Below are positions 11,348 through 23,861 of a DNA stretch of 64,000 nt, piece by piece. Source of the stretch: Clostridiales bacterium (lineage in GTDB: Bacteria > Bacillota > Clostridia > Christensenellales > Aristaeellaceae); contig JAFGGL010000019.1 in NCBI GenBank assembly GCA_016930575.1, positions 55,103-119,102 on the forward strand. Direction: 5' to 3'. Below the pieces are notes generated by a model. That model was not told where the DNA came from, made no database searches, and saw nothing but the letters and a program-made list of their open reading frames with translations. Made by a program: the position numbers and the translations under genes. Each line of letters begins with the position of its first letter. The first letter of the stretch is position 1.

Positions 11348-13384
11348 TCATTTAAAAAATATCAGATAAACCAACAGGCCGAACAACCCGATGCAGAACA
11401 ATAAAAGGCTGTAGCTCAGCGAGCGCTTGAGGCGTTTCATCGAGCGGCCCAACTCCTCGTTGCCCGCCGCCAGCGCGACCGAGAAATCGACGGTCGCCGG
11501 GCGGTTTTTGAGTATCGTTTTGTTAAGCATTGATACGCAGCCGTTCATCAGATCGCCCACGGCGTAGGTGAAGCGGTTGCCGCCGGGCATGGGCACGCGC
11601 CAGGCGCGCACATGCAAAAGCGCGCGGCGCAGCCAAGCGGCCAGCGTTTCCGGCAGCAGCGACACCGCCCAGGAGAACCAGGCGGCCATTGCCGTAAGCA
11701 TTTTAAGCACCGGCCGGTAGAGCATATCCTCCAGGTTGACGCGCGCGGGAACGGGGTTCATGTAGCTGCGGCCGCCCTCCGTTTTTTCACTCAGCAGGCC
11801 GCGGACGACGGCGAAATAGAGCAGCAGTCCAATACCGATCGATTCTGCGGCACCCAGCAGGTTTTCCGCGCTGAAATACGAGACCGCCCGTGCCTCCGTT
11901 TGCAGGAACTCCGCGCCGGCGCGCCCGATGCCGCCGATGAAGACGGACGGGAACAATCCCGCTAGAAGCGGGAAGACGGCCAAAACGGACAAAGCGATCA
12001 CGGACGCGCGCGTCATATACGGCGTTTTCGCGGGCTCCGCTTCCGGGCGCTCCCGGAACAGACAGACATAGAGCTTGAGCATATAAGCGGCGGTCAGCCC
12101 GCCCGCGAGGATAAACAGCCACTCGGCGGCAGTATAGAGCCACGCGCCGCCGTGTAAAAGGTGAATATACTCCGTCAGGCTTTCGTGCAGCAGCGATTTG
12201 CTCGCAAAGCCCGAGAACGGCGGCACGCCCGCGATACCGAGCATGCCCATGAGGAAAATCACGTGCAGCAGCGGTTTGCCGCGCCCGAACCCGCGCAGGT
12301 CGTTTAAATGCCGCTTGCCCGTGCGCATCACGGCCACGCCCGCGCAGAGGAATAAAAGCATCTTGAACGCCGAATGGTTTACCATGTGCGCGGCCAGGCC
12401 CTGCGCGGCGATGCCGCCGTGATAGGACAGCATTCCATACAGCCCCACGCCGACCAGGATGAACCCGATCTGGCTCATGCTGGAGTACGCCAGCACGCGT
12501 ATAAGGTTCATCGAAAGCAGCGCCCAAACACCGCCCAAAAGCATCGTGGCGATGCCGAGCCAGAAGATCAGTATGTGCCAGGCGGCGACCTCCCGCATGA
12601 CGTGCGCTGAAAGGAGGAGGACGCCGAACACCCCCGCCTTGGACAGCACCGCGGACAGGAGCGCCGTCGCGGGCGCGGGCGCGGCGGGATAGGCTTTCGG
12701 CAGCCAGACGTGCAGGGGGAACGCGCCGGCCTTGGCGCCGAAGCCGACCAGCATCAGCACGGCGGGCAGCATCAGCGACGATGCGGGGACGGTTTCCGGG
12801 GCAAAGCCCTGCGAGTAGCGCATCGCAAGCAATTCGCCCGGCAACAGCAGCATGCCCATCAGAATGCACAACCCGCCGATGACGGCGATCCACAGGTAAC
12901 TCTGCGCGGCGCGCAGGGATTCCTTCGTTTCCGAATGCGCGACCCACGGATAGCTGGCAAGCGACATGACTTCAAAGAACAGCACGGTCGTCTGCAATTG
13001 GTCGGATAAAAACAACCCGACGGCGGCGGACAGTGTCAGCAGCGAGAAGAACACGAAGCGCGGAACGTTCTCTTTTCCCTTAAAATACGAGAAGGAGAAT
13101 ACGGACGCGACCACCCACAGCAGCGCCGACAGCCAGGCGTACAGCGCGCGGAAGCCGTCCGACGCGAGCGAAATCCCCGCCGCGCAGAGGCTGGCGCTCG
13201 TCCATCCGCCCGCCTGCCCGTTCGCGGCCTGCCATAACAGGACAGACAGCGGGATGAGCGCCGCCAGGGACGAAGCCAGCATGCCCCACAGCGCGTACCG
13301 CGCGCGCCTGCGCCCCAGGGCGTAGGCGAACACGGCCCCGATCAGGGGCAGCAGCACCGCGATCCAAAGCAGGTGGTTGTTCAT
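11348..13384 (-). CDS. NuoL/M/N-MrpA/D-type proton-conducting antiporter subunit (paralog 5)
   Basis: FFEVMSLASYPWV (TM5 Glu) and GFGAKAGAFPLHVWLPKAYPAAPAPATALLSA (TM7 Lys motif). Confidence 0.9.
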   Translation of the reverse strand: MNNHLLWIAVLLPLIGAVFAYALGRRRARYALWGMLASSLAALIPLSVLLWQAANGQAGGWTSASLCAAGISLASDGFRALYAWLSALLWVVASVFSFSYFKGKENVPRFVFFSLLTLSAAVGLFLSDQLQTTVLFFEVMSLASYPWVAHSETKESLRAAQSYLWIAVIGGLCILMGMLLLPGELLAMRYSQGFAPETVPASSLMLPAVLMLVGFGAKAGAFPLHVWLPKAYPAAPAPATALLSAVLSKAGVFGVLLLSAHVMREVAAWHILIFWLGIATMLLGGVWALLSMNLIRVLAYSSMSQIGFILVGVGLYGMLSYHGGIAAQGLAAHMVNHSAFKMLLFLCAGVAVMRTGKRHLNDLRGFGRGKPLLHVIFLMGMLGIAGVPPFSGFASKSLLHESLTEYIHLLHGGAWLYTAAEWLFILAGGLTAAYMLKLYVCLFRERPEAEPAKTPYMTRASVIALSVLAVFPLLAGLFPSVFIGGIGRAGAEFLQTEARAVSYFSAENLLGAAESIGIGLLLYFAVVRGLLSEKTEGGRSYMNPVPARVNLEDMLYRPVLKMLTAMAAWFSWAVSLLPETLAAWLRRALLHVRAWRVPMPGGNRFTYAVGDLMNGCVSMLNKTILKNRPATVDFSVALAAGNEELGRSMKRLKRSLSYSLLLFCIGLFGLLVYLIFFK

Positions 13385-13400
13385 CCGATATCCTCTCGTA

Positions 13401-15437
13401 TTACCACAGCATCAGGTACATCAAAAGCCCGAACAGCCCGAGACAGAACAGCAGCAGGCTGTAGCTCATCGAGCGCTTGATCTTGCGCATGGATTGGCCC
13501 AACTCCTCGTTGCCGGCCGCCAGCGCGGCCGAGAAGTCGATTTCAAACGGGCGGCGTCTGCGCACGGTTTTATTGAGCAGCGCCACGGCGCCGTTGAGAA
13601 AGCCGCCGACGGCCATGGTGAAGCGGTTCCCGCCGGGCATGGGCACACGCCAGGCGCGCACATGCAGAAGCATCCGGCGGCCGCCCGCGATAGCGAGCTC
13701 CGGCAGGGAGGCGACGAGCCAAAAACACGCGCCGACCGCCGCCGTCAGCCCCTTCATCAGCGGGCGGTAGGCCGTCTCCTCCAGGTCCATCCACGTGGGT
13801 TTCCGGTCGACGTACACGCGCCCGTCCGCGGTTTTCTCGCTCAGCCAGACACGCACCGCTAACAGGTAGATCAAAAGCCCGACGCCTATGGATATCACAG
13901 CGTTCGCCAGCGCTTCGGTTGTGTAAACACGGATTGGTTCAACCTCCACATGGAAAAACCCGGCGCTCAACCGCCCGATGCCGCCCAGGATCGCCGAGGG
14001 AAACAGGCCGACCGCAAGCACCGCAGCGGCGCAAAGCGACAGCAACGCGGCGGAGCCTTTGGAAAACGAAGGATTTTTCGTTTCGTCCTCCGCCCCGCGC
14101 TCCCAGAACAGGCAGACGTAGAGCTTGAGCATGTAGGCGACCGTCAGCGCGCCCGTCAGGATGAACAGCCATTCGGTGGCGGCATAAGTCCACGCCCCGC
14201 CGGAGAGGTGAATGTACTCCGTCAGCGCCTCGTGCAGCAGCGTCTTGCTGGCAAAGCCCGGGAACAACGGTACGCCCGTGATACCCAGCATCCCAGCCAG
14301 GAACAGGGCATGCAGCAGCGGCTTCCCGCGCCCGAAGCCGCGGATGTCGTTCAGGTTCAGGGAATGCCGCCGCATGGCGACGGCGCCCGCGCACAGGAAC
14401 AGGATCAGTTTGAACAATGCGTGATTGACCATGTGGGACACAAAGCCCTGCATGGCGCCGCCTCCATGCTCCAGCAGCAAGCCGAACAGCCCTACGCCAA
14501 GCATTATGAAACCGATCTGGCTCATGCTGGAGCAGGCCAGGATGCGCTTCATCTCCACGGCCAGAAGCGCAAGCACCGCGCCGACCACCATGGTAATCAC
14601 GCCGATCCAGAAGATCAGCGCGTGCCAGGCGGCGATCTCCCGCAGGAACTTCACCGACAGCAGCGCGATGCCGAACACCCCGGTCTTTAAAAGCATCCCC
14701 GACAGCAGCGCGCTTGCGGGCGCGGGCGCCACGGGGTGCGCCTTGGGCAGCCACACGTGCAGCGGGAACGCGCCCGCCTTCGCCCCGAAGCCGACCAACA
14801 TCAGCGCGGCGGGGAGCATCAGGCGCGAGGGCTCTATGCCTTCGGTCATCGCAAAGCCCATTGAATACCGCAGCGAAAGCAGCTCATGGGGCAGCAGCAG
14901 CATTCCGATCAGCAGACACAGCCCGCCGATGACCGCGATCCACAGATAGGTCTGCGCGGCGCGCAGGGCCCCGGGCGTTTCCTCGTGCGCGACCCACGGA
15001 TAGCTCACAAGCGACATGACCTCAAAGAACACGATGGTCGTCAACAGCTGATCGGACAGAAACACCCCGATCACGGCGGACAGCGTCGTCAGCGTGAAAA
15101 ACGCATAGCGCGGCACGCTGGTTTTATTTTTGAAATACGATAGCGAGAACATCGCCGCGACGGTAAACAAAAGCGCCGCGAGCCAGGAAAGCAGCGCCGT
15201 GAAGCCGTCCGCCGCGAGCGCAAGCCCCATCACGCTAAAATGCGCCCAGGCAAAGGCGGACGTTTGCCCCTGAATGGTTTGAACAAGCAATACGGACAAC
15301 AGCGCAAGCGTGGCGGCGGATACGGCCGCCATGATAAGCAGGGCACGGCGGGGCCGCCCGCGGCCCAGGCCGTAGGCGACAGGCGCGCCGAGCATCGGCA
15401 GCGCCGCCGCGATCATTAGCCAAACGTTTCCCTGCAA
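13401..15437 (-). CDS. NuoL/M/N-MrpA/D-type proton-conducting antiporter subunit (paralog 4), tandem duplicate of 11348..13384
   Basis: Same length (678 aa) and high similarity; FFEVMSLVSYPWV, GFGAKAGAFPLHVWLPKAHPVAPAPASALLSG. Confidence 0.9.
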   Translation of the reverse strand: MQGNVWLMIAAALPMLGAPVAYGLGRGRPRRALLIMAAVSAATLALLSVLLVQTIQGQTSAFAWAHFSVMGLALAADGFTALLSWLAALLFTVAAMFSLSYFKNKTSVPRYAFFTLTTLSAVIGVFLSDQLLTTIVFFEVMSLVSYPWVAHEETPGALRAAQTYLWIAVIGGLCLLIGMLLLPHELLSLRYSMGFAMTEGIEPSRLMLPAALMLVGFGAKAGAFPLHVWLPKAHPVAPAPASALLSGMLLKTGVFGIALLSVKFLREIAAWHALIFWIGVITMVVGAVLALLAVEMKRILACSSMSQIGFIMLGVGLFGLLLEHGGGAMQGFVSHMVNHALFKLILFLCAGAVAMRRHSLNLNDIRGFGRGKPLLHALFLAGMLGITGVPLFPGFASKTLLHEALTEYIHLSGGAWTYAATEWLFILTGALTVAYMLKLYVCLFWERGAEDETKNPSFSKGSAALLSLCAAAVLAVGLFPSAILGGIGRLSAGFFHVEVEPIRVYTTEALANAVISIGVGLLIYLLAVRVWLSEKTADGRVYVDRKPTWMDLEETAYRPLMKGLTAAVGACFWLVASLPELAIAGGRRMLLHVRAWRVPMPGGNRFTMAVGGFLNGAVALLNKTVRRRRPFEIDFSAALAAGNEELGQSMRKIKRSMSYSLLLFCLGLFGLLMYLMLW

Positions 15438-15451
15438 CGCTTTATCCTCTC

Positions 15452-16894
15452 TTACAATCCAACGATTTGCGATAAATAATCGGCGATCGGTTTCCCCAGC
15501 AGGATCAGCGCGAGCATCGCCGCCGTTATCACCAGAAACAGCGTGAGCATCTGCCAGCCGGGGTCGCGCTTTTCAGAAGGCTTTTTTTCGATCGGCAGCG
15601 CGAAGGCCGTGACCGCGGGCTTGAGCAGATACGCCGCCGTGAACCCGGCGGAGATCAGCAGCACCGCGACGCCGGCGATGCCTATGATATGCCCGCTCCC
15701 GAAGGCCGCCGTGACCAGCGCCCATTTGCTCTGGAATATAATGAAGGGCGGGATGCCCACAAGTTCCACCGCGCAGAAGGCGAACACCGTCATCACGATG
15801 GGCATCTGCCGCCGCAGCCCCCGCAGCTCCTGCACGTATTCGCGCCCCGTCTGCACCAGGATCGCGCCCGCGCAGCTGAACAGCGTCAGCTTGATCAGGC
15901 TGTGGAAGATCATGTGCATCAGCCCCGCCTTGAGCCCAAGCGGCGTGAGCAGCAACAGCCCGAACAGCATATAACTGAGGTTGGAGATCGTGGAATAGGC
16001 GAGCCTGCGCTTTAGATGCTGCTCGTGCACGGCCTTTGCGCTGGCAAAGAGGATGGTGAACGCCGCCATCGACAGGCACAGCGTCTGCGCCCAGGTGCCG
16101 GAGATCAGCGCCGGGCCGTAGACGTAGTAAGCAAGCCGCGCCACCGAGAACACGCCCGCGTTGACCACCGCCACCGCGTGCAGAAGCGAGGTGACCGGCG
16201 TCGGCGCGACGGATGCCGTCGGCAGCCAGCCGTGCAGCGGGAACACCGCCGCCTTCACCCCGAAGCCGAAGAAGCCCAGCACGAACAAAAGCAGCATCAT
16301 CGTGTGCGGCGCCTGCCGCAGCGCGGGAATGCCGCCGTAGACAAAGATCGTCGTATCGCTGTAAACCAGCACGCTGATCATCGCCAAGAACCCGAGCGAC
16401 GCCGCGCCCAGCGTATAGTACAGGTACTTCCGTCCCGCGTACATGCTCCTGTGGCTGAAGCCGTGCGCCACCAGGAACACCGTGGCCAGCGTCAGCAGTT
16501 CAAAGAAGAAATACAGCGTGAACAGGTTCTCCGCCGAGGCGATCAAAAGCGTCATGGCGTAGCTTAAGAGATACTGCCCGAAAAACGCGTTCTCGCCCGT
16601 CTCGTGCTTCATGTACTCAAAGGCGTACAGCATCGAAAGCGGCCACAAAAACGCGATCAGCCCCGCGAATACCGAGCCCAGGCCGTCCAGCGAAAAAGCG
16701 ATCGTCATGCGGGAGGTGAACTCCAGCAGCACATAGCCGCGCCCGGGCTCCGCAAACAGCGCGAGGCACACGAACGCCGAGGTCGCGATCGTGGAAAGGA
16801 TGGCGATCCAGCGGCGGATACGGCCGCCCCGCCTGCCCCAGGTGAAGATCAGGGCGCTGCCCGCGATCGGGATTGCGAATGCGATCAGTAACAT
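15452..16894 (-). CDS. Proton-conducting antiporter subunit (paralog 3)
   Basis: FFELLTLATVFLV, GFGVKAAVFPLHGWLPTASVAPTPVTSLLHA; start chosen at MLLIAFAIPIAG rather than the longest ORF. Confidence 0.88.
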   Translation of the reverse strand: MLLIAFAIPIAGSALIFTWGRRGGRIRRWIAILSTIATSAFVCLALFAEPGRGYVLLEFTSRMTIAFSLDGLGSVFAGLIAFLWPLSMLYAFEYMKHETGENAFFGQYLLSYAMTLLIASAENLFTLYFFFELLTLATVFLVAHGFSHRSMYAGRKYLYYTLGAASLGFLAMISVLVYSDTTIFVYGGIPALRQAPHTMMLLLFVLGFFGFGVKAAVFPLHGWLPTASVAPTPVTSLLHAVAVVNAGVFSVARLAYYVYGPALISGTWAQTLCLSMAAFTILFASAKAVHEQHLKRRLAYSTISNLSYMLFGLLLLTPLGLKAGLMHMIFHSLIKLTLFSCAGAILVQTGREYVQELRGLRRQMPIVMTVFAFCAVELVGIPPFIIFQSKWALVTAAFGSGHIIGIAGVAVLLISAGFTAAYLLKPAVTAFALPIEKKPSEKRDPGWQMLTLFLVITAAMLALILLGKPIADYLSQIVGL

Positions 16895-16904
16895 GCCTGT
16901 CCCC

Positions 16905-18359
16905 CTATAGCAGCGCGCGGAGTATGGTGTCCACAGCGTTTCGCAGCGGCACGGAATACAGCCCGAACAGCAGCGCAAGCGCCGCAAGAATACAAAGCGG
17001 AACGATCATGCCGACCGGCGCGCGCCGGGCGCGCAGGCTCACCGCCGCATCGCCGGGGAAGAACGCGGTAAGCACCACCGGGGCGATGTACCCCGCCGTC
17101 AAAAGCGCGCTGACCAGCAGCACCACCGGCCCCAGCCAGTAAAACACGGGCATGCCGCTTTGCACCGCGCCCCGCGCAAGCACCCATTTGCTCAAGAATC
17201 CGCTCAGCGGCGGGATGCCGACCAGGCCGACGCCCGCGACGGTGAAACACCACATCGTGACCGGCATGATCTTGCCGATACCGCGCATCTCGTCCACGTC
17301 CGCCGTGCCGCCGTATACGATCAGCGCGCCGGCGCACAGGAACAGACAGGTCTTCATCACGCTGTGGAACACCGTGTGCAGCAGCGCGCCCTCCGCCGCC
17401 GCGCTTTGCAACAGGAATAGCCCGAAGAGGATATAGCTGATCTGGGAGACCGTGGAATACGCCAGCCTGCGCTTGATGTGCTTCTGGCGCAGCGCCTGCG
17501 CCGAGCCGATGAGAACCGTCAACAGCGAAAGCGATAATAGCGCCGTCTGCACCCAGCTGCCGCGCATAGCCTCCGTTCCCGCCGCGAAATAGATGACGCG
17601 GAAGATGCAAAGCACCCCCGCGTTGACGATGACGCCCGAAAGCACGGCGCTTGCGGGCGTGGGCGCGATGGGGTGCGCCGTGGGCAGCCAGCCGTGCATC
17701 GGGAACAGCCCGGCCTTCGTGCCGAACCCGAGGATGCAGACGAACAAAGCGATCAAAAGCAACGCCGGAGGATCTGCAAGCAGCTCCGCCGTAAGCGAGC
17801 CGCCCGCAACAAAGGTCGGGCTGGTCGTGTGCAGGGTCAGGTAGATCACGCCGAACAGGCCCATCATCGCGCCGGCGATGGAGTACAACAGGTATTTGAT
17901 GCCCGCCGCCACCGCTTCCTTCGTGCGGTCGTAGAGCACCATGGGAAAGGAGCACAGCGTCAGCGTTTCAAAGCACAGGTACATCGTTAAAAGCGAGCCC
18001 GCCAAGCACAGGCACATCAGCGCGAACAGCGAGAAGAAATAGAACGCGAAAAAGCGCGCGGGATTTTTCTCATGTTTGAAGTAGGTCAGCGCGTAGAACC
18101 CAGCCGCCATGAACACGCCGGAGAACAGTAGCCCAAACAGCCTGCCCGCCCCGTCGCTTTGGAACATGAAGGTCACGCCCGGCGCGACGGAGAACAGCGT
18201 CTGCACGCCGTCGCCCGTTATAGTCAGCGCGGCGACCGCCGCAAAGCACAGCGCAAGCCCGGCCCCCGCCGCGGCCGCCCGGAACCTGCGCGCAAACAGG
18301 AACCACGCCCCGAAAAAAAGGGGGATGGCCGGAACCAGGACGAACAGGATGCTCTGCAT
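16905..18359 (-). CDS. Proton-conducting antiporter subunit (paralog 2)
   Basis: CFETLTLCSFPMV, GFGTKAGLFPMHGWLPTAHPIAPTPASAVLSG. Confidence 0.88.
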   Translation of the reverse strand: MQSILFVLVPAIPLFFGAWFLFARRFRAAAAGAGLALCFAAVAALTITGDGVQTLFSVAPGVTFMFQSDGAGRLFGLLFSGVFMAAGFYALTYFKHEKNPARFFAFYFFSLFALMCLCLAGSLLTMYLCFETLTLCSFPMVLYDRTKEAVAAGIKYLLYSIAGAMMGLFGVIYLTLHTTSPTFVAGGSLTAELLADPPALLLIALFVCILGFGTKAGLFPMHGWLPTAHPIAPTPASAVLSGVIVNAGVLCIFRVIYFAAGTEAMRGSWVQTALLSLSLLTVLIGSAQALRQKHIKRRLAYSTVSQISYILFGLFLLQSAAAEGALLHTVFHSVMKTCLFLCAGALIVYGGTADVDEMRGIGKIMPVTMWCFTVAGVGLVGIPPLSGFLSKWVLARGAVQSGMPVFYWLGPVVLLVSALLTAGYIAPVVLTAFFPGDAAVSLRARRAPVGMIVPLCILAALALLFGLYSVPLRNAVDTILRALL

Positions 18360-18373
18360 GCTTCAATAACTCC

Positions 18374-19867
18374 TCAGGCCAGATTTTGAATGCCGGTCGT
18401 GATGAGGTTGATGATGTCCTTGGCAAAAAAGCCGATCGCCAGGTTGACGGCCCCGAACACGCTGAGCGTGACCGCGGTGAGCCTGGATTTGATGAACGGC
18501 TGACGCACGAACCCTTCCCTGGGTTTGCGGTAGAGCCCGAGCACCGTGTGCATGAAGTAAAAGGCGTTTAAAAGCGTACTTAAGGCCAGCGCCGCCAGCA
18601 GCGTGATACGCACCCAGCCCGCGCCCGAGATCGCGGCCTCGGCAAAGAAGATCTTGGAGAAGAACCCGCCGAGGACGGGGATGCCCACCATGCTCATCGC
18701 GCCCAGCGAAAATGCGATTCCCGGGATGACATAGCGGTAACCCGCGCCGCGCAGGTCCACAAAGCGCTTACTATCCCCCGAGGCGTCGCACAGCGGCGAG
18801 ACGGACAAAAACAGCATGCTCTTGCAAAGCGCGTGCACCACCAGGTGGAACATCGCCGCAGCCACGCCCACGTCGCTGCCAAGCCCGATCCACGCAAACA
18901 GGTACCCCATCTGCGACACCGAGGAGTACGCCACCATCCGCCGGATGTCCAGACAGCGGATGGCGCCGATAGAGCCGAGTATCATTGATAATACGCCCAG
19001 CACCAGCATCAAATTCAGCGCCATGTCGGACAGGACGACGTCGATGCCGATGACGCGGTAGAATATCTTCACAAGTAGGAAAAAGTACGCCTTGCTCACG
19101 ACGCTGGAAAGCACGGCGCTGGCCGCCGAGGTGGAATAGCCGTAGGCGTCGGGCAGCCACATATGGAAGGGAAACACGCCGCATTTGATGGCGATGCCCG
19201 CGATGAACAGCCCGATGATGACCGAGATGGGCAGCGCGTACGCGCCGTTCGCGGCATACCGGGCGATCACGGCGTGGATGTTCTCCATCAGCAAATGGCC
19301 CGTCAGGTTGTAGGTCAGGGCGATGGCGATCAGAATGAGGCCGGAACCCAGCAGGCTCAAAATCATATAGCGCATCGAGGCGACCATGGTGTGCCCCACC
19401 TGCCGCGCCATCATCAGCGCGCAGCTTGACAGCGCCATGATCTCGATGAACACGTATGCGGTAAACAAGTCGTTGGTATAGGTAAGCGTCAGCATCCCGG
19501 CCATGATCAGGTTGCACATCACGTAGAACAGCCCCTGCTTGGGCGTATCGATCTGCCGCTGCAGCTTGTTCATCCCCGAGAGCTGGGACAAAAGCATCAC
19601 GATGCTCAAGGCAAGCGCGATGACCGTCTCCAAAAGCCCAGCGCGCAGCTCGTTGCCCCAGGGCGCGGGGAAGTGCCCCATCATGTAGTTGTAGCTTCCG
19701 CCAAACGACAGCATGAAAGGCAGAAACCAAATATGCAAACAGACCACGGCCGATACCATGCCCACCGACAGCCATTTGGCGGCGCGGCGGGGCAGCACAG
19801 GCGTGACGACGGCCGAGATCATCGCAAGCATGATGGAAAAAAAAGGCACGTTTTGTACAAGCTGCAT
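18374..19867 (-). CDS. MrpD/MbhH-like proton-conducting antiporter subunit (paralog 1)
   Basis: FIEIMALSSCALMMARQ, IAIKCGVFPFHMWLPDAYGYSTSAASAVLSS; directly downstream of MnhC. Confidence 0.88.
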   Translation of the reverse strand: MQLVQNVPFFSIMLAMISAVVTPVLPRRAAKWLSVGMVSAVVCLHIWFLPFMLSFGGSYNYMMGHFPAPWGNELRAGLLETVIALALSIVMLLSQLSGMNKLQRQIDTPKQGLFYVMCNLIMAGMLTLTYTNDLFTAYVFIEIMALSSCALMMARQVGHTMVASMRYMILSLLGSGLILIAIALTYNLTGHLLMENIHAVIARYAANGAYALPISVIIGLFIAGIAIKCGVFPFHMWLPDAYGYSTSAASAVLSSVVSKAYFFLLVKIFYRVIGIDVVLSDMALNLMLVLGVLSMILGSIGAIRCLDIRRMVAYSSVSQMGYLFAWIGLGSDVGVAAAMFHLVVHALCKSMLFLSVSPLCDASGDSKRFVDLRGAGYRYVIPGIAFSLGAMSMVGIPVLGGFFSKIFFAEAAISGAGWVRITLLAALALSTLLNAFYFMHTVLGLYRKPREGFVRQPFIKSRLTAVTLSVFGAVNLAIGFFAKDIINLITTGIQNLA

Positions 19868-19868
19868 G

Positions 19869-20249
19869 CTATTCGTCTTCCCCCTTCATCATCAGCGTCA
19901 TGCTGTCGATATCCAGGGTATGGTAGCGGCGGTAGAGGCGGATGGTTAAAGCCAGCATCACCGCCGTGACGCTGACGGACACCACGATGCCCGTGAGCAC
20001 CAGGCCGCTGGGGATGGGGTTGACGTAGCCGGCCGCTGCCGCGCCTTCGGCCAGCACCGGCGCGGCGCGCCCCGCGATGAAGCCCTGCGAGGTCAGAAAC
20101 AGGAAGGTCGCCGTCTCCATGATGTTGAGCCCGATGATCTTCTTGATGAGGTTGTGGTGCAGCAGCAGCGTCGTAAACCCGATGCCGAACAAAAGGATGG
20201 CGACGGTGACGTCCAGATGCGTCCACAGCAGCGAGAGAATATCGCCCAT
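19869..20249 (-). CDS. MnhC/MrpC (NuoK-like) cation:proton antiporter subunit
   Basis: LFGIGFTTLLLHHNLIKKIIGLNIMETATFLFLTS...NPIPSGLVLTGIVVSVSVTAVMLALTIRLYRRY. Confidence 0.88.
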   Translation of the reverse strand: MGDILSLLWTHLDVTVAILLFGIGFTTLLLHHNLIKKIIGLNIMETATFLFLTSQGFIAGRAAPVLAEGAAAAGYVNPIPSGLVLTGIVVSVSVTAVMLALTIRLYRRYHTLDIDSMTLMMKGEDE

Positions 20250-21247
20250 CAAACCCCTCCTTTGCGTATCAGGGTGTAAAACACATACATCGTGCACATC
20301 ACGACCAGCCCGACGCAGATGTTCAGCGGCAGGATGAATCCCGCCGACAGGATGTTGCCCGGAACGCCCAGCGAAACGCCGCTTTCCAGATGGTTGGCGC
20401 CCGTGTAGAAGGAATAGCTTTTCAGCCCCGCGTAGCTGAGAAGCGCCGCGAACGTCACCCACTGGAAGGTACGGTAGGTGAAGAAGCGTTCGGTCTTTTT
20501 GAAGCCGTAGGCGTTTAAATATAGGATCAGCCCCGCGCCCATGATGGCGCCGCCGGAGAACCCGCCTCCGGGCGTGATGTGCCCGTTTAGTACCACGTAA
20601 AACCCGAACAGCAGCACCACGGGCGTAAGGAGCTTAGCGGCGAACTGAAGGATCTGGTCGTTCTTGGGCTCGTGGAAGCGGTCGTCGTACTCGGCCTCCA
20701 GCCAGGTCTTGGTGGGCTTGCCGTCCTTGTGGTCGTGCAGTTTCAATAAAAACAGCGCCGAGCAGGCGGCCGTGAACAGCACCGTCGCCTCGCCGAAGGT
20801 ATCAAACGCGCGGTAATCCAAAATCATGCCCGTGACCATGTTGACCGCGCCGGTCTCTCCGGGGCCCAGTTCCACGTAGCGCGCGGCGACCTCGTTGTTG
20901 TCGGGGTTGCCCGGGTCGCCGAACGGCGGCAGGGTATTCACCGTCCACAACAGGAACATCACGATGCCAAAGCAGGTGACCGCAGACAGGATACGGTACA
21001 GGCGCTGGATGATTTTCACGCCCGAAGAATACGACCACGCGTGGATCTGCCGGTACATCTCGTGCTCCTGCTCCTGGGCGCGCTGCACGCGCAGCTCGCG
21101 CACGCCTTCCAGCGCTTCCAGCGCCTCGTTGGAGGAGCGCGTAAGCCCTTGCGGCTGCTCGCCCAGGGAGGCGATCATGTCCTCGTCCAGCGGGCTTTCG
21201 TCGCCGTAGAACCTCTGGCGCAGGATGTCAGCGATCTTTTTCTTCAT
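20249..21247 (-). CDS. MbhE-MnhB/MrpB-like subunit with a hydrophilic N-terminal extension
   Basis: DYRAFDTFGEATVLFTAACSALFLL followed by LLTPVVLLFGFYVVLNGHITPGGGFSGGAIMGAGLILYL. Confidence 0.85.
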   Translation of the reverse strand: MKKKIADILRQRFYGDESPLDEDMIASLGEQPQGLTRSSNEALEALEGVRELRVQRAQEQEHEMYRQIHAWSYSSGVKIIQRLYRILSAVTCFGIVMFLLWTVNTLPPFGDPGNPDNNEVAARYVELGPGETGAVNMVTGMILDYRAFDTFGEATVLFTAACSALFLLKLHDHKDGKPTKTWLEAEYDDRFHEPKNDQILQFAAKLLTPVVLLFGFYVVLNGHITPGGGFSGGAIMGAGLILYLNAYGFKKTERFFTYRTFQWVTFAALLSYAGLKSYSFYTGANHLESGVSLGVPGNILSAGFILPLNICVGLVVMCTMYVFYTLIRKGGV

Positions 21248-21491
21248 CGTTTTTCACCTTGATCGCATGGAGTTTTTTGAGCGTGATAAAGAACAATATG
21301 CCCGTGACGCCCGCGCCGACGGCGGCCTCGGTGATCGCAAGGTCGGGCGACTGGAGCAATATCCACAGGATGCTCATCAGCAGGCTGTACGCCAGGAAGA
21401 TGATCACGGACACGAGCAGGTCCTTGGCGATGCAGGTGGCGACGGCGCATATCAACAGCGCGCCGAGCACGATCACCGTCAGCAGCGTCAT
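21228..21491 (-). CDS. DUF4040/MbhD-like subunit
   Basis: MTLLTVIVLGALLICAVATCIAKDLLVSVIIFLAYSLLMSILWILLQSPDLAITEAAVGAGVTGILFFITLKK. Confidence 0.85.
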   Translation of the reverse strand: MTLLTVIVLGALLICAVATCIAKDLLVSVIIFLAYSLLMSILWILLQSPDLAITEAAVGAGVTGILFFITLKKLHAIKVKNDEEKDR

Positions 21492-21811
21492 TTGCTCAGC
21501 ACCTCCATATCGCGGTCGAGCCGTGGGTTGGTGGTCGCCTCCAGGCGGGCGATCAGGTGGCCGGCGGTAGGGCTGGCGATCCACAGGAAGATCATCGTCA
21601 GCGCGAACTTGAGCACGATCCATCCGTCGGCGGCGCTGATGGAAAGCCCGATCATCAGCGCCAGGATGCCCAGCGAATCGCACATCGAGGACGCGTGCAG
21701 GCGGTTGAGCGCGATGCGGAAGCGGTACTGCCCGAGCACGCCCGCGGCGAGCACGACCAAACCGCCGAGCAGGAAAACGGCCGTGAGGATGAAGCGGACG
21801 ACCTCAATCAC
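21488..21811 (-). CDS. MnhG/MrpG-like antiporter subunit (GTG start)
   Basis: LGQYRFRIALNRLHASSMCDSLGILALMIGLSI...IASPTAGHLIARLE. Confidence 0.85.
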   Translation of the reverse strand: MIEVVRFILTAVFLLGGLVVLAAGVLGQYRFRIALNRLHASSMCDSLGILALMIGLSISAADGWIVLKFALTMIFLWIASPTAGHLIARLEATTNPRLDRDMEVLSK

Positions 21812-22112
21812 GTTTGATCTCCCCCTTCTCCTGTTTTTCCATCGCAACGCCCATGTACACCTTGCATAGCACCACGATCGCCAGGAAGCCGATCATCGCG
21901 TACAAAAGCGCGACGTCGGCCAGGTAGCCTTCATTCAGCATCAGCGCGAGCACGCAGATCATCCCCAGCGTCAGCGTGCAGATCATGTTGATGGCGATGA
22001 TTCGGCCGGTGATGCCGGGGCCGCGCACCGCGCGCTCCAGGCACAGGAGCGTGAGTACGGAAAGCACGGCCAGCACAGCCGTATACAGGGTTTGATAGGC
22101 TTCCTGCATCAC
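21804..22112 (-). CDS. MnhF/MrpF-like antiporter subunit
   Basis: RAVRGPGITGRIIAINMICTLTLGMICVLAL...YLADVALLYAMIGFLAIVVLCKVYMG. Confidence 0.85.
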   Translation of the reverse strand: MMQEAYQTLYTAVLAVLSVLTLLCLERAVRGPGITGRIIAINMICTLTLGMICVLALMLNEGYLADVALLYAMIGFLAIVVLCKVYMGVAMEKQEKGEIKRD

Positions 22113-22579
22113 TTCACCCCCAGCTTTTCCAGCCGCATCAGCCGCCGCTGGAACGAAAGGTTTTCGATACCCTCGGCAAAGCTTTGATCCAGGCAGTGCA
22201 CGGTGAGCTTTTCGCCCTCGCAGAACACCGAAAGCGTGCCGGGCGTCAGCGTGATGGAGTTGGCAAGCAGGCTTTGCGCCAGCGTGGTTTTCAACGGCGT
22301 ACAGAAGGTGATCAGCTGCGGTTTGACCTCATACTTCGTACGGAGCATGATGCGCATCAACTGGAAACTCGCCTGGACGATCTCCTTGAGCAGCACGGCG
22401 ACGTACACAAGCGCCGCGGGGATCATCCTGAGGATGCGCAGCTCGCGTCGCAGCCCGTAATCCAGGAATTTGACGCAGAAAAAATACAGAGCCGCGACGA
22501 TCACGGCCCCGATGCCCGCAATTTCAAGGGTGACGCGACCGTTGAACGCGATCCACAGGAGAAACAGCGCCGTCAGCAT
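22109..22579 (-). CDS. MnhE/MrpE-like antiporter subunit
   Basis: LPxx-type MnhE features: YVAVLLKEIVQASFQLMRIMLRTKYEVKPQLITFCTPLKTTLAQSLLANSITLTPGTLSV. Confidence 0.88.
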   Translation of the reverse strand: MLTALFLLWIAFNGRVTLEIAGIGAVIVAALYFFCVKFLDYGLRRELRILRMIPAALVYVAVLLKEIVQASFQLMRIMLRTKYEVKPQLITFCTPLKTTLAQSLLANSITLTPGTLSVFCEGEKLTVHCLDQSFAEGIENLSFQRRLMRLEKLGVK

Positions 22580-22641
22580 CCTTTTTACCTCCGCTACGAA
22601 TAAATAGAAAAACAGCGGGAAGGAGCCCCGCCCTCCCTGTT

Positions 22642-22670
22642 ATTTTATGCTCCGCGTTACCATTTGTCAA
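22642..22670 (-). promoter_or_regulatory. Sigma-A promoter (TTGACA-17-TAAAAT) for the Mrp/Mbh-like operon
   Basis: Minus strand TTGACA = 22670-22665, TAAAAT = 22647-22642, 17-nt spacer, upstream of MnhE. Confidence 0.65.
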
Positions 22671-23775: not shown

Positions 23776-23861
23776 GCCGGTGTGTCGGAATGGCAGACGA
23801 GGAAGACTCAAAATCTTTTGTGGGCGACCACGTGGGGGTTCAAGTCCCTTCACCGGCACCA
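23776..23861 (+). tRNA. tRNA-Leu (anticodon CAA), CCA encoded
   Basis: GCCGGTG...CACCGGC acceptor stem, ACTCAAAATC anticodon loop, long variable arm, GGTTCAAGTCC T-arm, ACCA end. Confidence 0.93.

Follow-up and report, generated by a model that had tools for sequence, protein, structure and literature searches.

A probable stand-alone Mrp-type antiporter operon with five antiporter-like subunits in a Clostridiales genome, and its common four-subunit relatives in gut Clostridia

The 64,000-nucleotide stretch of DNA analysed here (the window) derives from an assembly with an estimated completeness of 95% and contamination of 5%, and carries on its minus strand an operon (22579-11348) of eleven open reading frames, all of which were identified by profile searches against Pfam and NCBIfam. 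Adjacent genes overlap or almost abut, and follow the order MnhE, MnhF, MnhG, MbhD, fused MbhE-MnhB, MnhC and five NuoL/M/N-type antiporter-like subunits (APLS). The operon opens with MnhE/MrpE (22109-22579, 156 aa; PF01899, E = 4e-27), followed by MnhF/MrpF (21804-22112, 102 aa), called from an NCBIfam match and from alignments with MrpF chains of the PDB, and by MnhG/MrpG (21488-21811; PF03334, E = 7e-18), whose start is uncertain, the reading frame reaching 21847. MbhD (DUF4040; 21228-21491, start inferred), which is homologous to a portion of the C-terminal domain of MrpA, was assigned through PF13244 and alignment with 6cfw_D. It precedes the 332-aa fused MbhE-MnhB protein (20249-21247; PF20501 and PF04039), which has an N-terminal extension, and the NuoK-like MnhC/MrpC (19869-20249, start inferred; PF00420).

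Five consecutive Proton_antipo_M proteins (E of about 1e-50 each) occupy the remainder of the operon, at 19867-11348: the MrpD/NuoN-like N1 (18374-19867, 497 aa), L2 (16905-18359, 484 aa), L3 (15452-16894, about 480 aa, start inferred), L4 (13401-15437, 678 aa), which bears a C-terminal extension, and L5 (11348-13384, 678 aa), a tandem duplicate of L4. N1, L2 and L3 were placed by profiles and phylogeny, L4 by profiles, pairwise identity and phylogeny, and L5 by pairwise identity, a structural model and phylogeny. An earlier note, made from the DNA letters without database searches, had described a minus-strand operon with these Mrp/Mbh subunits and five NuoL/M/N-type proteins; the profile search that it proposed bears this out, every subunit being assigned, and the MbhE and MnhB that it listed are both present, joined in a single reading frame.

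The promoter recognised in that note, TTGACA-17-TAAAAT (22642-22670, minus strand), agrees with the consensus at 11 of 12 positions, and 0.2 promoter-like sites of such quality would be expected by chance in the searched stretch. Between this site and mnhE, inspection of the sequence revealed a terminator-like stem-loop with a T tail (22617-22637, minus strand), a possible attenuator. A riboswitch was rejected as an explanation, since an Rfam search of the region upstream of mnhE, stem-loop included, returned no family match. Outside the operon, the window holds a tRNA gene (23776-23858), which is overlapped by a long frame of the open reading frame list.

Alignment of the five window APLS, numbered on N1, revealed as invariant the TM5 glutamate E142, the TM7 lysine K228, H341, H345 and K349, and the TM12 lysine K405. 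The TM5 Glu and TM7 Lys previously pointed out in all five proteins are thus upheld, and the TM12 Lys joins them. L4 and L5 are 61.5% identical as proteins and 69% identical as DNA, whereas identities of the remaining APLS pairs range from 26 to 37%. In a maximum-likelihood tree, the phylogeny of the five paralogues that the earlier note had called for, L4 and L5 form a sister pair (support 100/100) that leaves out the single copies from two same-genus genomes, and the L2/L3-type subunits group with a rhizobial MrpD-like subunit. Duplication by misassembly was rejected, because L4 and L5 differ at 31% of their bases, a divergence too large for an artefact. Each keeps every family-invariant residue. 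Judged from these comparisons, and within the data seen, L5 arose from the terminal MrpA/NuoL-like subunit by a tandem duplication specific to this lineage. By the same evidence, the eleven-gene set comprises four conserved APLS types, one of them duplicated: the five consecutive paralogues reported before are all there, but the last two are duplicates of each other, leaving four types plus a local copy.

The predicted structure of L5 (mean pLDDT 87) is best matched in the PDB by chains of MrpA and by NuoL, the match extending along almost the entire protein. Beyond residue 500 the model contains further helices, including one of 39 residues (551-589) that could correspond to the lateral helix in MrpA/NuoL, confidence falling below 50 near the C-terminus. 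A longer extension might be expected with more APLS, because one lateral helix would have to span a longer chain; the C-terminal extension of L4 and L5 is, however, no longer than in operons with four APLS, and the length of the lateral helix, having no clear relation to APLS number, was rejected as a marker of it.

A survey of related genomes, likewise suggested in the earlier note, revealed a common operon of ten genes, with four APLS, that the note had missed. Among 40 genomes, the window's own included, a Proton_antipo_M gene occurs in 15, namely the window's own, one lacking the operon (G002) and 13 relatives. The latter share the order E-F-G-D-EB-C-N-L2-L3-L4 as far as their contigs reach, the terminal subunit of one (G007) sitting on another contig end and the contig of another (G005) stopping inside EB. 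A scan of named genomes with an alignment of the fused MbhE-MnhB protein yielded 80 loci, mostly from Lachnospiraceae together with other gut Clostridia, with hosts such as Hungatella hathewayi, Coprococcus catus, Eisenbergiella porci, Butyricicoccus pullicaecorum and Schaedlerella arabinosiphila. The last APLS is reached in 66 of these loci, each of which has four (66/66), the other 14 being cut short at contig ends or close to them. In none of the four APLS types has any aligned copy lost the TM5 Glu, the TM7 Lys or the TM12 Lys (66-73 copies per type). One locus (L052) that appeared to be a second five-APLS case was rejected, its terminal gene being a single open frame matched in two pieces, which leaves four. 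The five-APLS state is rare, and the four-APLS operon is common in gut Clostridia, named strains included.

Two further observations concern these related loci. A AATAGGAAGG-like motif, a possible operator, lies within 100 bases of the mnhE start in nine of 70 upstream regions (L031, L035, L036, L041, L044, L056, L083, L095 and L099), against about one in base shuffles, the pattern having been picked post hoc. Two GA-cis RNA matches (14214-14298 and 15790-15875) lie near junctions of APLS genes in the Schaedlerella operon (L072).

In other families of the phylum, related operons carry two, three or four APLS genes, with three in Peptoclostridium acidaminophilum. Five APLS were found again in G144, a single-contig genome, and in its congener G105. 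Three of the five in G144 are of the terminal type and cluster together in the tree, which indicates that the number five arose there independently. On the same strand, this operon (L133/L134) is flanked by Fe-S proteins that resemble, by eye, parts of formate dehydrogenase or hydrogenase.

Group 3 Mrp systems lack mrpA and have one or more mrpD genes (PMC8415708). In the window, MnhE, MnhF, MnhG, MnhC and MnhB are encoded in one operon that has multiple MrpD-type subunits and no mrpA gene, and the APLS carry the TM5 Glu, TM7 Lys and TM12 Lys expected of the family. The MrpA with a fused MbhD/MbhE-like C-terminal domain that characterises the classical groups 1 and 2 was not found, MbhD and MbhE-MnhB being separate reading frames, nor was their MrpF Asp35, a residue outside the group 3 definition. 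From the gene content, the key residues and the fact that the operon is conserved with no redox module, we consider it probable that its product is a group 3 Mrp (CPA3) cation/H+ antiporter that stands alone, and that it does not serve as the arm of some redox enzyme encoded elsewhere.

In such an antiporter, protons would enter through the chain formed by N1, L2, L3 and the MrpA/NuoL-like L4 and L5, and the resulting charge movement would be coupled to the export of Na+ (or K+) at the junction of N1, MnhC, MbhD and MbhE, the exported ion entering between MnhE, MnhF and MnhG. The fifth subunit is the product of a terminal-subunit duplication in the window's lineage. Extra channels could bring in more H+ per cation expelled, so that a steep Na+ gradient could be sustained by a low proton-motive force, and the exchanger would connect the Na+ and H+ circuits of its host. 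This mechanism would fit the host, because the window's genome has a gene for an RnfD-type protein and genes for a V-type ATPase whose c-subunit pattern (LLPATQGIYGF / VMVETY) presumably resembles that of Na+-binding c-subunits. In its full form, the proposal places all five APLS (four in the relatives) in one complex, each carrying one proton, giving 4-5 H+ per cation, and treats the number of APLS as an adjustable gear, raised to five at least twice independently by duplication of the terminal subunit; we put it forward tentatively and find it, taken whole, rather doubtful. For Mrp with two APLS, a model of 2 H+ per Na+ has been put forward in a paper that describes the actual H+/cation ratio as unknown (PMC9568556).

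It was also considered whether the operon could be the membrane arm of a redox complex of the Mbh, Mbs or complex I type with its catalytic subunits encoded elsewhere, the second of the two readings offered in the earlier note. The MbhD/E layout is like that of Mbh/Mbs, and the window's genome does contain NuoB-, C-, D-, H- and I-like genes on another contig, C44; its NuoB-type and 49-kDa-type genes are confined to that contig, in keeping with the previous observation that the window has no redox catalytic genes. The redox locus, however, runs across the end of contig C4 and the end of C44 (L009, L010), apparently one Mbx/Mbs-like locus split by an assembly break, and comprises a complement of membrane genes (E, mbhD, EB, C and two APLS) in addition to NuoH, NuoB, NuoC, NuoD and a NuoI-GltD-like fusion. 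With membrane subunits of its own, this complex would have no need of the window's operon. Its NuoD-like subunit is devoid of CxxC pairs, and the complex is therefore probably not a hydrogenase. Neither the operon nor the fetched flanks of related loci gave matches to NuoB, C, D or H, so that adjacent redox subunits, which the earlier note had named as refuting evidence, did not turn up in these flanks. A NuoB-type or hydrogenase-small-subunit gene is absent from all 13 relatives that have the operon; among the 40 genomes, a NuoB-type gene occurs only in the window's own and in G002. Nine of the ten strain genomes behind the fetched loci likewise have no NuoB-type gene, and their only APLS genes are the four of the operon (split matches counted as one), whereas the remaining genome, that of Eisenbergiella porci, carries a single NuoB-type gene and an extra APLS-like gene elsewhere. 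A redox arm was rejected on the absence of NuoB-type genes from the relatives and most strain genomes, and we regard it as very improbable; the expanded Mrp antiporter, the other reading of the note, is favoured.

Within a stand-alone complex, both the substrate and the number of APLS at work could differ from what is proposed above. Alignments revealed that most of the cation path is kept, including MbhD Glu81 (the Na+-site Glu), Asp149 and Glu153 of MbhE-MnhB, His51 and Pro93 of MnhG, and Thr112, Pro113 and His128 of MnhE; roles for the residues of the Na+ route in Mrp have been proposed (PMC7419157). MnhC has Glu32 in the window and Asp in all relatives, as has MbhG at that position. MnhF departs from the pattern: where Anoxybacillus flavithermus MrpF has Asp35, Asn occurs in all 78 aligned copies (the window's, as Asn42, and 77 related ones), and at the Asp29 position the window copy alone has Gly. 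These two changes suggest that cation entry may differ. Asp35 has been called invariable in Mrp, its change to Leu inactivating the A. flavithermus antiporter (PMC7419157), and some Mrp systems carry K+ or Ca2+ (PMC5703873); the altered MnhF would be accommodated if this Mrp-like complex transported a different substrate, such as these ions, or had a modified coupling that bypasses the MrpF route. The conservation of the remaining path residues and the report that Asn at the Asp35 position is mild in Bacillus subtilis (PMC7419157) nevertheless make this unlikely. A better chance, although still below even, is given to the interchange of L4 and L5, whereby each complex would hold four APLS capped by one or the other, yielding two antiporter isoforms. 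Both are full-length terminal MrpA/NuoL-like paralogues, each with a C-terminal extension not exceeding in length that of four-subunit operons, and the second five-APLS operon, that of G144, also multiplies the terminal type only. Against this, L4 and L5 lie side by side in one operon and are presumably produced together, and both retain all family-invariant residues.

The stand-alone antiporter reading gains interest from the range of operons available for comparison, since two, three, four and five APLS occur in stand-alone operons of one phylum, with the four-APLS form in named gut strains. Comparing them side by side would show whether each APLS carries one proton, a question that arises equally for complex I. 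Such an antiporter may also help to account for the exclusion of Na+ by gut fermenters whose proton gradient is weak.

In the open-licence literature, no description was found of a stand-alone Mrp with four or five APLS, a many-MrpD Mrp of gut Clostridia included; an already described five-subunit operon, which the earlier note would have counted against itself, was thus not encountered there. Among the closest counterparts is a functional group 3 Mrp from Pyrococcus furiosus (PMC8415708), likewise stand-alone, which shares the absence of an MrpA gene and of a redox module, as well as the separate MbhD-like, MnhB, C, E, F, G and MrpD-type subunits, but has one MrpD instead of five (four in the relatives) and lacks the MbhE-MnhB fusion found here. 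The group 3 Mrp of Aphanothece halophytica, with two mrpD genes (PMC5703873), is also stand-alone with a multiplied MrpD-type subunit, and is a demonstrated Na+/H+ antiporter; it has fewer APLS, an mrpA gene and another gene order. Every functional part of the group 1/2 Mrp complexes (Bacillus pseudofirmus, 7QRU; A. flavithermus, 6Z16; Dietzia, 7D3U) has a homologue here, MrpA being the best match of the L5 model, yet these complexes differ in having two APLS, an MrpA with a fused C-terminal domain and MrpF Asp35. The arms of Mbh and Mbs (6CFW, 6U8Y) resemble the operon in the layout and sequence of MbhD, MbhE, MnhB and C, but have only one or two APLS and are joined to subunits of a hydrogenase or a sulfane reductase. 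Comparable numbers of APLS are known from complex I with extra pumps (PMC9040806), with four in Nitrospira 2M and in the rhizobial green complex I and five in Manganitrophaceae Complex_I_3; these are redox-driven quinone oxidoreductases, whereas the window operon has no redox part. The operon is thus genuine and represents a well-conserved variant within a transporter family already known, its fifth subunit alone being rare.
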